The translations under genes and the position numbers were made by a program. DNA of 34,394 nt from NCBI GenBank assembly GCA_028819845.1, contig JAPPKS010000010.1, positions 1 to 34,394 on the forward strand. Direction: 5' to 3'. Source of the stretch: Candidatus Poribacteria bacterium (lineage in GTDB: Bacteria; Poribacteria; WGA-4E; PCPOR2b). Shown one piece after another: positions 11,174 to 30,613 of the stretch. Below the pieces are notes generated by a model that did not search any database, was not told the DNA's origin, and saw nothing but the letters and a program-made list of their open reading frames with translations. Position 1 is the stretch's first letter; every line of letters begins with the position of its first letter.

Positions 11174-12796
11174 TTAGGTGAATTCACAGGTACGGAATTC
11201 AGGTGGTGATGATTGTACAGATTGCACAGAATTTCGATGAGTCCAACGGCCCATGAAGCGCTTTTCCAACTTCGTACCGTCCATCTCACGGTTTGGCAGT
11301 AATCCGTTTCTTTGAGATGTTTTTTCCTGAAGTTCTTCTAGCGCGGGTTTAGTTGTGTTGAGTACCGGCTGGGGATAAAGCCCCAACCAAACGATTGCAA
11401 CGATTAAAGCCAACATCATCGCCATATCGCGGGCTGAAAGATCCGGCAGTTTCAAATCCTCCTGAATAGGACCGTGGAAAGCACGCTGCATTATCCACAG
11501 CGAATATACCGTAGCAAAGACAAGGCCGACCGCCGCCAGTGCAGTCATTGTGATGTTGACTTGGTAAGCTCCCATCAACACCAAAAACTCACCGACAAAG
11601 TTGCCTAATCCCGGCAACCCAAGTGACGCCATGGCGAAGACCATCCCCACTGCGCTCATACGCGGGACTGCTGCCCAAAGACCGCCCATTCGATTTAAGT
11701 CACGAGTATGAATCCGCTCGTAAAGTGCACCTACGAGAATAAAGAGTGCGCCGGTACTGATGCCGTGACAAATCATCTGTATCACGACGCCCTGCAGCGC
11801 CAATTCATTCCAGGCGAAGACGCCCAAAAGTACAAATCCCATGTGGCTCACGCTCGTGTACGCCACCAACCGCTTCAGGTCGGTTTGCGCAAAGGCGAGG
11901 ATGGCGCCGTACAAAATGCCAATCACGCCAAACAGCATCGCTATAGGAGCAAAGTCGCGGGCAGCATCAGGAAACAACGGCACCACAAAGCGCAGCAGCC
12001 CATAGGCGCCGGTCTTTAACAGAAGCCCGGCGAGAATAACGCTGCCCGCCGTGGGTGCTTCAGTATGCGCATCAGGCAGCCAGCTATGCACCGGAAAGGC
12101 AGGTAGTTTCACAACGAAAGCGACGAGGAAACCCAGCATCAACCACTTCGCTGTAGACGCTGATATCGAGTTGTCAAGCAACTGTGTATAATCAAACGTA
12201 TAGGTGCCGCTGGCACCCCCGTGAATGAAATACAATCCCACAATCGCCAACAGCATAAATAAGCCGCTCGCCTGCGTAAAAATGAAGAATTTAACTGCCG
12301 CGTAGATGCGGTTCTCATGTCCCCAGATACCAATCAAGAAATACATTGGTATCAACATCATTTCCCAGAAGAAATAGAAGAGCACAAGATCCAGCGCGAG
12401 GAACACGCCCATAATCCCCGACACTATCCACATCAGGTTAAAGTGGAAAAAGCCAACGCGCTCCTTAATCTCGGTCCACGAGGCGCCTACACTCACAATT
12501 CCCAAGAAAACGGTGAGCGCAATCATTACAAGGCTCAGACCGTCCATACCCAGGTGGAAGTGGATTGTGCCTTTGTGAATGGGAATCCATGGTGCATCTA
12601 ATTCAACCAACCAATCAGAACCGCCCGATAACGCAACCTGATCAGAATGTTGTACCCAAAGCCCCAATACCAAAACCAGGTCTATCGCTAGAGCAAGCAG
12701 GCAAATCCAGCGTGGTAATGAAGAATTTTGGCGAGCCAAAATCCACGCCAGAACACCGCCGATAAGTGGAATGACAATGAGCCACGTTAATATCAT
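11174..12796 (-). CDS. nuoM: NADH-quinone oxidoreductase subunit M
   Basis: Second antiporter-like proton-pumping subunit of complex I, with about 14 membrane helices. Recognised by FFFWEMMLIPMYFLIGIWG, HSWLPDAHTEAPTAGSV and LVAYTSVSHMGFVLLG. The usual fold ends near YPQPVLNTTKPALEEL; after it the protein continues for about 45 hydrophilic residues with no membrane segment, making 540 residues against about 509 in E. coli. The tail is rich in Arg, Ser and Gln and looks unrelated to other NuoM proteins I know; it may be an extension acquired by loss of the original stop. A 135-base spacer separates it from nuoL. Confidence 0.95.
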   Translation of the reverse strand: MILTWLIVIPLIGGVLAWILARQNSSLPRWICLLALAIDLVLVLGLWVQHSDQVALSGGSDWLVELDAPWIPIHKGTIHFHLGMDGLSLVMIALTVFLGIVSVGASWTEIKERVGFFHFNLMWIVSGIMGVFLALDLVLFYFFWEMMLIPMYFLIGIWGHENRIYAAVKFFIFTQASGLFMLLAIVGLYFIHGGASGTYTFDYTQLLDNSISASTAKWLMLGFLVAFVVKLPAFPVHSWLPDAHTEAPTAGSVILAGLLLKTGAYGLLRFVVPLFPDAARDFAPIAMLFGVIGILYGAILAFAQTDLKRLVAYTSVSHMGFVLLGVFAWNELALQGVVIQMICHGISTGALFILVGALYERIHTRDLNRMGGLWAAVPRMSAVGMVFAMASLGLPGLGNFVGEFLVLMGAYQVNITMTALAAVGLVFATVYSLWIMQRAFHGPIQEDLKLPDLSARDMAMMLALIVAIVWLGLYPQPVLNTTKPALEELQEKTSQRNGLLPNREMDGTKLEKRFMGRWTHRNSVQSVQSSPPEFRTCEFT

Positions 12797-12931
12797 AAGT
12801 AATCGCTAATTACGAATCCAACAGATTGGTTCAATAGGGGAAACACCGAATAAAAGACATGTTAGGTAGTTGGCTGATCAAATCTATCAACGTAACCTAC
12901 GTTACCTCATCCGCATACCATCCACGCGCAT

Positions 12932-14839
12932 TTAAGACAACACAACCATCGCCACAATGACGACGGCGCCAAACGCGATTCCAACCGCATACCATCGTAC
13001 ACGCCCGGTTTGCGTGAGGCAAAAAATAAAGTGGAAAATCTGTATAATTCCCGCGAATAAACGATAGATAAAATCAATGATGTCATTCTTGTTGATGCGC
13101 GCTGCCCAGACCACGGGCTGGACGAATACCTTGTCATATAACCAATCAAAGCCCCATCCCGCAAACCAAAAACGGTGCACGGCAACGCCGACGGACGAGC
13201 CTGCAACACCCTCAACGAAGATTTGTTTGCGCAGGAAGAACAGGTACGCCAAGGATATGCCCACGACTGAAACGACAACAGCGATGCCCTGTAGAATCAA
13301 TTCCGCCGCCGCTTTGCCGTGTCCACCATGCTCAACTGAGGCAGTCAATGGGAACGCGGATTCCATGAACTTCGAGAACGGCTGCCAATTTCCCCACGCA
13401 TGAGGTAGTTCGATTAAGCCTCCGATAATTGCTAACGCCGCCAAAATCGTCAGCGGAATCTTCATGCAAGCACCCGGCTTTTTGACCACATGGCTTTTCG
13501 CCTCGCCAAAGAAGGCGATGAATACCAATCGGAAAGAGTAAAGAGCGGTGAGCAGCGCCCCGCCCAGCCCCACTATATAAAGCCACGGTTGATGCGCTGA
13601 CCACACCTTCCAGAGAATCAAATCTTTACTGTAGAAACCGGCGGTAATAAATGGAAAACCGGCTAACGCCGCGGCGCCGATAATAAACGTTTTGGAGGTT
13701 AAAGGCAGCGCACGCCGCAAGCCTCCCATGTTAAAGATGTCCTGTTCATGATGTAGCGCCAATATCACCACGCCAGCGCCAAGGAAGAGGAGCGCCTTGA
13801 AAAAGGCGTGCGTCATAAAGTGGAACATAGCGGCAGACCAAGCACCCACCCCGAGCGCCAGGAACATGTAGCCGATTTGACTGATGGTGGAATACGCCAA
13901 AATTCGCTTCATATCGCGCTGCGTCAGCGCGCTGCATCCTGCAACAAACAGTGTTATCGTTCCAATCAACGCCACGGCGAATTGTACGGCTGGGGCAAGT
14001 TCAAAAAGGACATAGGTGCGAGCGATAAGATAGACACCCGCGGTTACCATGGTCGCTGCGTGGATAAGCGCACTCACAGGTGTCGGGCCTGCCATCGCAT
14101 CAGGCAACCACGTCTGTAATGGAAGTTGGCCAGACTTGCCCAGCGCCCCGCCGAGTAGCAGTGCCGCCGCCGCAATAGCTAAACCGGAACCCTCCATCCA
14201 CTGCGACATTGCCAACGCCAAAATGCCTCCATCCCCGTGGATGTTTAGCGTTCTCAAGTGGGCAAAAAGAAGAAAAAGACCGAGCGCCATCGCCGTATCG
14301 CCTACCCGAGTAATCGTGAAGGCTTTCCGAGCCGCAAGCCCATTGGCGGGGTCTTTATACCAAAAACCAATCAGCAGGTAACTACAGAGGCCGACCCCTT
14401 CCCAACCCAGATAAAGCAGTATCAGATTATCGGCGAGTATCAAGGTCAACATCGAGCCGACGAACAGATTCATGTAAGCGAAGAACCGGCTGTATCCATC
14501 CTCGTCGTTCATATACTCGGTCGAATATAGGTGAATAAGGAAACCAACAACCGTTACGACGAGGGTCATGAGCAGAGAGAGCGCATCCAGATGAAAGGTT
14601 ATCCCCGGCGCAAAACTGCCGACCTTCATCCAGGTCCAGAGCGTTTGTGAAAAAGCATCGCCCGGCGGCGGTGAACTCATAAAGCTAAAGCCACACAGCA
14701 AAGACACTACCGCCGATATCCCTATCGAGCCCACGCCGATAGCTGCAACACCCGCGCGGGAAAGTCGAGTGCCGATTAACACCAACACCAGAAAACCGAT
14801 GAATGGCAAAATTGGAATCAGCCACAATAATTCCAGCAT
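12932..14839 (-). CDS. nuoL: NADH-quinone oxidoreductase subunit L
   Basis: Distal antiporter-like proton-pumping subunit of complex I, with the long lateral helix near its C-terminus. The start is set at ATG 14839 (MLELLWLIPILPF, 635 residues), one base after the nuoK stop; the longer open frame to 14926 would overlap nuoK and its extra residues are not NuoL-like. Family motifs are LLYLGWEGVGLCSYLLIGFW, TWLPDAMAGPTPVSALIHA and ILAYSTISQIGYMFLALG. A hydrophobic C-terminal helix ends the protein. It lies between nuoK and nuoM in the standard order. Confidence 0.95.
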   Translation of the reverse strand: MLELLWLIPILPFIGFLVLVLIGTRLSRAGVAAIGVGSIGISAVVSLLCGFSFMSSPPPGDAFSQTLWTWMKVGSFAPGITFHLDALSLLMTLVVTVVGFLIHLYSTEYMNDEDGYSRFFAYMNLFVGSMLTLILADNLILLYLGWEGVGLCSYLLIGFWYKDPANGLAARKAFTITRVGDTAMALGLFLLFAHLRTLNIHGDGGILALAMSQWMEGSGLAIAAAALLLGGALGKSGQLPLQTWLPDAMAGPTPVSALIHAATMVTAGVYLIARTYVLFELAPAVQFAVALIGTITLFVAGCSALTQRDMKRILAYSTISQIGYMFLALGVGAWSAAMFHFMTHAFFKALLFLGAGVVILALHHEQDIFNMGGLRRALPLTSKTFIIGAAALAGFPFITAGFYSKDLILWKVWSAHQPWLYIVGLGGALLTALYSFRLVFIAFFGEAKSHVVKKPGACMKIPLTILAALAIIGGLIELPHAWGNWQPFSKFMESAFPLTASVEHGGHGKAAAELILQGIAVVVSVVGISLAYLFFLRKQIFVEGVAGSSVGVAVHRFWFAGWGFDWLYDKVFVQPVVWAARINKNDIIDFIYRLFAGIIQIFHFIFCLTQTGRVRWYAVGIAFGAVVIVAMVVLS

Positions 14840-25032: not shown

Positions 25033-25056
25033 GTAGGAGCGATCTCCGAATCGCGA
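25033..25056. repeat. Single copy of a GTAGG-flanked hairpin element
   Basis: GTAGGA is followed by the stem GCGAT (25039-25043), the six-base loop CTCCGA and the complementary arm ATCGC (25050-25054). The layout matches the tandem units at 25490-25646 (same GTAGG flank, similar NTCCNA loop), but the stem sequence differs while pairing is kept. It lies about 50 bases upstream of the nuoA start, so it may fall in the 5' leader of the nuo transcript. Confidence 0.6.
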
Positions 25057-25378
25057 CATATTCGCTCAAGCGAATCTCAATCCTAACAAAAAACTGCAAT
25101 CAACGGCGCTACTACCAATCGTGTTAATCCTATATGTACTATTTTTGGTTGAATTAGCCATACCTATCCAATTCTTGAGGGACGCCGTTCGTCGTTGGTA
25201 ATGTGGTGCAGTTGAGGCAACGGCGCAAACATTGAAGCATTCAGTACCATATCAGCTATCAGAACAATCAGTTTAACCGCATAAGGCAAACGCTTGTTTC
25301 TGTAGCAATTGCCATCCCCACACTTAATCCTGCGGGCCCTAACTTCGATGTTCAGTTAGAACCCTGCCTACGCCTAGC

Positions 25379-25427
25379 TTGTATCTTTTTGTCACAAAGT
25401 CAAGTGGATAGTATATAACAGATACAA
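25379..25427 (+). promoter_or_regulatory. Candidate promoter enclosed by an inverted repeat
   Basis: TTGTCA (25389-25394) and TATATA (25412-25417) are 17 bases apart, a good sigma-70-like pair pointing toward the Mo-hydroxylase operon; TATAAC at 25414-25419 is an alternative -10. The short palindrome TTTGTCACAAA (25388-25398) overlaps the -35 box. The whole site is bracketed by TTGTATCT (25379-25386) and its exact complement AGATACAA (25420-25427). This could be an operator-controlled promoter, about 630 bases upstream of the first gene, with the tandem repeat in its leader. It is unproven. Confidence 0.4.
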
Positions 25428-25489
25428 AAAAGAAGCAAGCGTTTTTTGCACACTCCCCGGCTACCGCACCGGCCTAATCTTATCTCTTA

Positions 25490-25646
25490 GGATTTGTAGG
25501 CGAGGCGTCCTAACCTCGATTGTACCATCGGAATTGTGGGAGAGGCTTCCTAGCCTCGATTGCACCATCGGATTTGGTGGGCGAGGCTTCCCAGCCTCGA
25601 TTGCACCATCGGACCTGTGGAAGAGGTTTCCTACCTTCGATTGTCA
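25490..25646. repeat. Tandem array of four 40-bp hairpin-containing units
   Basis: Four adjacent units begin at 25490, 25530, 25570 and 25611 (40, 40, 41 and about 36 bases). Each starts GGA, contains GTRGG and a small hairpin, and the first three end ATTGYACCATC. Stems are CGAGG/CCTCG, GAGGC/GCCTC, CGAGGC/GCCTCG and AGGT/ACCT. In the fourth unit both arms change together so the pairing is retained. There are no unique spacers, so it is not a CRISPR array. Confidence 0.85.
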
Positions 25647-30403: not shown

Positions 30404-30613
30404 ATCAACTGAGCGAATAGCGAAGGCGATAGTAAATCCCGTGCGCGTGCGATAGAGATCTTCCTTGCCCCGCGTGTGCCACCACGCCTTGTAGGCGGGG
30501 CATCTTGCCCCGCACGCGCCAGCACGCCCTGTAGGCGGGGCATCTTGCCCCGCGCAATGCTGGAGTAAGGGATTTGGTGGAATCAAGCGACCGTATAGTA
30601 TCGACTGAGCGAA
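30404..30613. repeat. 40-bp hairpin repeat array flanked by 14-bp direct repeats
   Basis: Two 40-bp units (30464-30503 and 30504-30543) and the start of a third (from 30544) carry a hairpin, GCGGGGCA-TCT-TGCCCCGC, after a GTAGG flank. The stretch is bracketed by AAATCCC (30434-30440) and its complement GGGATTT (30569-30575), and then by direct repeats ATCAACTGAGCGAA (30404-30417) and ATCGACTGAGCGAA (30600-30613), which differ at one base. The arrangement suggests an inserted repeat element with duplicated flanks. Confidence 0.75.

Follow-up and report, generated by a model that had tools for sequence, protein, structure and literature searches.

REPs, short palindromes tagged with GT[AG]G, act as non-autonomous mobile DNA. 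The discovery of the REP-associated tyrosine transposases (RAYTs), their coevolution with REPs and the GA insertion of the latter have been described (PMC2817692), and GTAG REPs have been reported from eight phyla, with heterodimers and tandem groups among them (PMC3733652). RAYT subclasses and the geometry of the cognate REPs have been set out (PMC6006769), and group 3 RAYTs are described as strand-specific on perfect palindromes (PMC8266576). In Pseudomonas fluorescens SBW25, tandem REP arrays run forward near 2 Mb and in reverse near 4 Mb (PMC3116915), and replication-coupled spread has been documented for two IS200/IS605 elements (PMC6006769).

Here we analysed a 34,394-nucleotide stretch of a Candidatus Poribacteria genome (hereafter, the window), and conclude that its GTRGG hairpins are very probably REP elements, organized in families with cognate RAYTs, that is, a known kind of mobile DNA. 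As in the GTAG REPs served by group 3 (subclass 2.5) RAYTs of Pseudomonas, Xanthomonas and Stenotrophomonas, a GT[AG]G foot precedes a short perfect palindrome, RAYTs are flanked by their own REPs, and RAYT and REP coevolve. In one class of hairpins (type I, comprising families A, C, E, F and others), GA lies between foot and palindrome, as in the REPs of Pseudomonas and Xanthomonas (PMC2817692). Foot plus stem measure 12 nt, within the 10–13 nt given for subclass 2.5 (PMC6006769). The system differs from those described in its poribacterial host, in its stems and loops, in the presence of several families side by side, and in the 40-nt direct arrays of family B. What is added here is Poribacteria as a host and the strand coherence of the units; the REP/RAYT kind itself is known. 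A literature search covering titles and the beginnings of abstracts returned no earlier report of REP/RAYT systems in Poribacteria, and a term search found no mention of Poribacteria in the main text of two REP surveys (PMC3733652, PMC6006769).

Hairpin units of the window

All units in the window lie on the + strand. Read as probable REPs, they are the following.

25033..25057, + strand: family A REP unit with foot GTAGGA, stem GCGAT/ATCGC and loop CTCCGA, followed by the tail GAC
25490..25643, + strand: entire family C array; four units head-to-tail with a period of 40–41 nt
25496..25519, + strand: C-array REP unit 1; both loop-side pairs broken
25536..25559, + strand: C-array REP unit 2; stem GAGGCT/AGCCTC intact, with loop TCCT
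25577..25600, + strand: C-array REP unit 3; stem CGAGGCT/AGCCTCG intact, with loop TCCC
25617..25640, + strand: C-array REP unit 4; stem decayed
30451..30473, + strand: family B REP unit whose 5′ arm is eroded; its position fits the 40-nt period
30491..30513, + strand: REP unit of family B; GTAG, 8-bp stem GCGGGGCA/TGCCCCGC, loop TCT
30531..30553, + strand: second intact REP unit of family B, 40 nt after the unit at 30491; 8-bp stem GCGGGGCA/TGCCCCGC, loop TCT

The order of GTRG, stem, short loop and stem complement given in the preliminary description is indeed present at 25033–25057, 25496, 25536, 25577, 30491 and 30531, whereas position 30464, taken there as the start of a unit, falls inside the eroded unit at 30451–30473. 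The likeness of the loops holds within families (TCCY in C, CTCCGA in A, TCT in B) and is weaker between them. Unit 4 of the C array had been credited with a C-to-T change in one arm offset by G to A in the other; compared with unit 2, it shows C to T in its 5′ arm and two changes, C to T and G to C, in its 3′ arm. Read in the register of the family, these leave one broken pair and one wobble, and the 4-bp AGGT/ACCT stem previously read here forms only by a one-base slip. The supposed compensation is absent, and unit 4 is a decayed unit. Under a fixed rule, the window holds five GTRGG hairpins versus a mean of 0.69 in 300 first-order Markov windows, one of which reached five.

The family A unit and the C array, in which the sequence between units is also repeated, are located between NADH dehydrogenase genes on the − strand and a molybdenum hydroxylase operon on the + strand. 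The B units are flanked by this operon and by a fumarylacetoacetate hydrolase-family gene, in an interval that includes a 154-aa reading frame to which no known family was assigned.

Dispersal across the genome

The source genome, a draft assembly, comprises 4.61 Mb in 35 contigs, and the genome-wide search bore out the earlier notion of a dispersed family. Family A was found at 78 places at up to two mismatches, type I as a whole at 126 places with a pattern that fixes only the tag, the loop core and the outer pair and leaves the inner pairs free, and B-like units at 159 places with an analogous pattern, inner pairs again free; the controls, a reversed pattern in the case of family A, gave none in each case. 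The units are scattered over many contigs and are frequently solitary. Of 1108 GTRGG sites in a 412-kb sample, 104 (94 per 1000) lead into a perfect hairpin of 6 bp or more; for six control words, the rate is 3.7–7.2 per 1000. When GTRGG 13-mers were chosen solely by recurrence of the 5′ half, 8 of 21 had a hairpin of this kind in most copies, compared with 1 of 81 for nine control words. Another 13-mer, GTAGGTTGGGTAG, occurs 17 times in the same sample with no short hairpin under the rule used and may represent a further repeat family with a longer loop.

In 101 pieces, mostly picked around units and hence not a random sample, 422 of 431 units lie outside predicted genes (our own ORF model, 77% coding). 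A GT[AG]G foot on a short palindrome, high copy number and extragenic location, the attributes of GTAG-type REPs, are thus all observed. Adjacent units of family B are direct in 60 of 60 pairs, mostly 40 nt apart. One direct array of about 21 B units, mostly with 40-nt spacing, occupies positions 12337–13289 of locus L021 (C26:252337-253289). Some type I units on contigs C20, C11 and C32 form close inverted pairs with two different stems (e.g., C20:194522+/194549- and C11:137770-/137809+).

Covariation between families and decay within them

The pairing tests used 100 listed type I places (of the 126), which correspond to 36 distinct sequences. Over the inner five pairs, 155 of 180 cells are paired, whereas 2000 shuffles of whole 3′ arms averaged 107 and never exceeded 124; a pair counter returned 88.4% paired for type I versus 66.5% after shuffling. 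The covariation score is 0.567 versus 0.184 ± 0.027 in shuffled sets, none of 500 being as high, and falls to 0.02–0.20 (maximum 0.195) in slid registers; two of the five covariation measures, double-change pairs and further pair types, were not above the shuffles, of which 444 and 445 in 500 scored as high. Since the search pattern fixes the outer pair, that pair is uninformative on covariation. Nine perfect arm types cover 67 of the 100 listed places: GAGGCT (30), GGGACA (11), GCGATT, GGGAAA and GGGAAT (6 each), and the rarer GAGGCA (4), GCGTCC (2), GGGAGA (1) and GGGGCT (1).

The proposal that stems differ in sequence yet remain complementary consequently stands for comparisons between families, whereas within them changes are mostly uncompensated. 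Among the deviating stem pairs of the 431 units, 189 are uncompensated, 30 are wobbles and 21 are compensated, in a set collected at up to three substitutions from the consensus, which permits one compensated pair and disfavours more. The compensated changes are mostly recurrent, marking small sublineages. Because single-arm changes dominate within families, pairing seems to be needed in the copy that spreads rather than maintained at each site, with free decay afterwards.

Cognate RAYTs in the source genome

Three loci of the source genome match Y1 transposases. L002 and L003, with 132.2 and 124.8 bits, exceed the NCBIfam cut-off of 80 for REP-associated tyrosine transposases, and L001 is IS200-like; one further weak match to the RAYT model, on contig C6, is below the cut-off. 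The marks of a RAYT, namely, the HUH motif, the region of the Y1 catalytic tyrosine and a profile score over the cut-off, are all present. By sequence, the nearest solved structure to L002 is E. coli TnpA-REP (4er8). Among its GTAG-contacting residues, W, Q and R are kept and D replaces E100, a pattern described for subclasses 2.5 and 2.7 (PMC6006769); judged by alignment against that description, the RAYT would belong to subclass 2.5 (group 3), the D being common to subclass 2.7 as well.

L002 is flanked by hairpins of families F and A in inverted pairs, among them a hairpin matching the window unit at 25033..25057, and L003 is flanked by B hairpins, all direct. RAYT–REP pairs (REPtrons), in which the RAYT is flanked by its own REP family, are accordingly found for A/F and for B. 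For families C, D and E, searches with Y1 and RAYT profiles revealed no evident RAYT in the source draft, and no RAYT of the draft is flanked by C hairpins, such that no REPtron was found for that family. The preliminary description had named a TnpA-REP-like gene as one to be sought, and had suggested that the units are copied by a hairpin-recognizing enzyme, such as a REP-associated Y1 transposase; with two RAYTs over the cut-off in the same genome, cognate to these hairpins and flanked by them, this suggestion is strongly supported.

The IS200-like transposase of L001 (positions 900–2500) is surrounded by another hairpin repeat, of type AGCCCCAGCGGGGC, which lacks the GTRG tag.

RAYT–hairpin pairs in relatives

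RAYTs over the cut-off are encoded in 38 of 58 genomes, the source genome included, and 71 such loci were examined with flanks of up to 1.5 kb. Core RAYTs (n = 44), a group defined after inspection of the proteins, share the motif M/I-P/S-D-H-x-H. A GTRGG hairpin is present within 800 bases of 41 of these 44, compared with 5 of 27 other RAYT-like loci and 0 of 30 IS200-like controls from the same genomes; the remaining three core RAYTs lack one at that distance. On the tree of the 44 core RAYTs, the two hairpin architectures require three changes each, versus 13.8–13.9 when shuffled, although L115, nested in the type I clade, has type II hairpins. The distances between RAYT proteins and those between their hairpins are correlated (r = 0.60; 0 of 10,000 permutations) over 39 loci, which omit from the 44 the three hairpin-less loci and two near-copies. 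The correlation persists within type I (r = 0.54; 0 of 5000) and type II (r = 0.45; 39 of 5000). Part of it may reflect common descent, because a RAYT and its flanking hairpins share a locus.

Individual families can be followed in this set. L003 is sister (support 99/97) to L092, from G001 in another genus of the same family, and L092 is flanked by the exact B hairpin of the window (unit 30491). GAGGCA and GGGAAA hairpins, the nearest to families C and E, flank the RAYT of L068, and variants occur at L109 and L113, all from the same taxonomic family; the hairpins of L068 and L113 are nearly identical to those of family C. A RAYT-alignment scan of named genome contigs retained 80 loci, 30 of them from Poribacteria, all within the first 33 listed.

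Within the reading frame of the L092 RAYT (1450–2004), minus-strand REP units at 1802 and 1841 lie in frame between the HUH and tyrosine motifs, producing the repeated peptide GQDAPPTG. REP insertions inside RAYTs are described as unique to subclass 2.4 (PMC6006769).

The paired hairpins resemble REPINs and heterodimeric or dimorphic REP pairs (PMC3116915, PMC3733652, PMC2817692): around L002, families A and F are arranged tail to tail, and the inverted pairs around L068 consist of GGGAAA and GAGGCA in alternation. In contrast to those systems, the partner stems are distinct, and the window contains no inverted pair, its A and C units being without a partner there.

Strand orientation and base skew

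Base skew was calculated from third codon positions with correction for gene strand and called clear beyond 3 standard errors; this cut-off, like the gene model and the selection of pieces, was chosen in the course of the analysis. Where the skew is clear, the C-rich strand carries 32 of 33 clusters of family A, 38 of 47 of B, 19 of 21 of C, 14 of 20 of D, 4 of 6 of E and 4 of 7 of F; over all pieces, the counts are 55/66, 61/81, 33/47, 22/29, 13/22 and 9/20, respectively. When signs were flipped by contig 20,000 times, results as extreme arose 1 time for A, 14 for B, 42 for C, 1419 for D, 3105 for E and 17,474 for F. Families E and F thus show no strand bias, and neither does D by the contig sign-flip test. 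F units share the strand of A units in 6 of 34 pairs and are opposed otherwise, as expected of inverted partners.

Gene direction as the cause of the coherence is unsupported. The relation to skew persists for skew derived from + genes alone (A, 38 to 5; B, 42 to 4), as it does for skew derived from − genes alone (A, 35 to 7; B, 31 to 18). Genes of the skewed pieces are on the G-rich strand in 263 of 561 cases, as are the nuo genes of the window. On contig C10, the genes for ribosomal protein L2, an EF-Tu-domain protein and an ATP-synthase alpha/beta-family protein are on the + strand, which there is the C-rich strand bearing the REP tag, and the best match to RNA polymerase beta is on the + strand of C25; 16S rRNA was not found in the draft. 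For the units listed in the first 1.5 Mb of G040, a single-contig relative, 40 clusters fall into 7 runs of orientation, and 1 of 20,000 shuffles had as few. In G005, a single-contig relative from the same family as the source genome, skew in 20 pieces of 20 kb gave no clear picture.

Discussion

One of the two alternatives in the preliminary description was selection for pairing in RNA or single-stranded DNA, and hairpins held in this way at each site could be RNA elements, such as terminators, mRNA end stabilizers or small structured RNAs. Their intergenic location would be compatible with such a role, and for REPs in other organisms, partial transcription and action at the RNA level are presumed (PMC3733652). 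However, the uncompensated decay in place, at 189 changes versus 21 compensated, argues against pairing being selected site by site. Neither do the units clearly follow the strand of co-directed neighbouring genes, the same and opposite orientations being near even for A (16/13) and B (34/26) and weakly uneven for C (22/13). A search of the window against Rfam gave no match at gathering scores, and the sequence 3′ of its units contains no T run. RNA regulatory elements were therefore rejected as the general explanation, which we hold to be very unlikely, even if secondary use in RNA may occur at some sites.

Enzyme-free origin as simple tandem repeats, through replication slippage and recombination, would readily yield direct B units at 40-nt spacing and arrays in which the sequence between units repeats too, and slippage may well lengthen arrays after their arrival. 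As an account of the whole it is highly improbable, given that units are found on many contigs, often alone, and that the same hairpins flank RAYT genes. The regular 40-nt spacing also recalls a CRISPR or an array of protein-binding sites, to which we assign almost no likelihood: units are single at many places and the spacers repeat, for which reason a CRISPR array was rejected. Among the observations that sit less easily with REPs mobilized by RAYTs are that B units form direct arrays and not the inverted pairs usual for REPINs, and that the source draft lacks an evident RAYT for families C, D and E.

Under the REP/RAYT interpretation, the tagged strand of DNA in the single-stranded state would fold into a hairpin, of which the foot, stem and loop would be recognized by a cognate RAYT, an HUH enzyme with a single tyrosine, apparently one per REP type here. 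By cutting and joining the single strand, the RAYT could deliver units, pairs or arrays to new intergenic places. RAYT and hairpin would change together, giving rise to the compensated stem differences between families, and copies already inserted would decay freely. The RAYT of L002 probably serves family A and its partner F, and that of L003 family B. For family C and its probable partner E, the RAYT may have been lost or may be missing from the draft, because RAYTs with such hairpins occur in sister genera. The copy number, tag, pairing and intergenic location of the hairpins, their place beside RAYTs and the RAYT–REP correlation are observed directly; cutting, copying and the need for single strands are presumed by analogy with other RAYTs (PMC8266576).

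The tandem GI–GIII REP arrays of P. fluorescens SBW25 (PMC3116915) are likewise direct, with orientation differing between two sides of the chromosome; unlike here, where one unit type recurs every 40 nt, they comprise GI and GIII units with 112/72-bp spacing (PMC3116915). A further likeness may lie with IS200/IS605 elements (IS608, ISDra2), in which single-strand HUH transposition at subterminal hairpins is tied to the lagging-strand template (PMC6006769), although REP units are gene-less and the IS200-like loci in our set lack the GTRGG hairpin. Whether REP insertion in Poribacteria is tied to replication in the same sense, with RAYTs acting on one strand of the fork and families A, B and C keeping one orientation per replication arm, is a proposition for which we judge the chances to be even. 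The literature search, over titles and the beginnings of abstracts, yielded no earlier report of a strand bias of REPs.

Collectively, these results place an abundant multi-family REP/RAYT system in Poribacteria, and the many RAYT–hairpin pairs within one order offer a panel for studying hairpin recognition by an HUH enzyme. Should the strand bias hold, the orientation of REPs would provide a test of replication-coupled spread from genomes alone, and, if the link to replication is true, both replication direction and past inversions would be recorded in this orientation and could be read from it.
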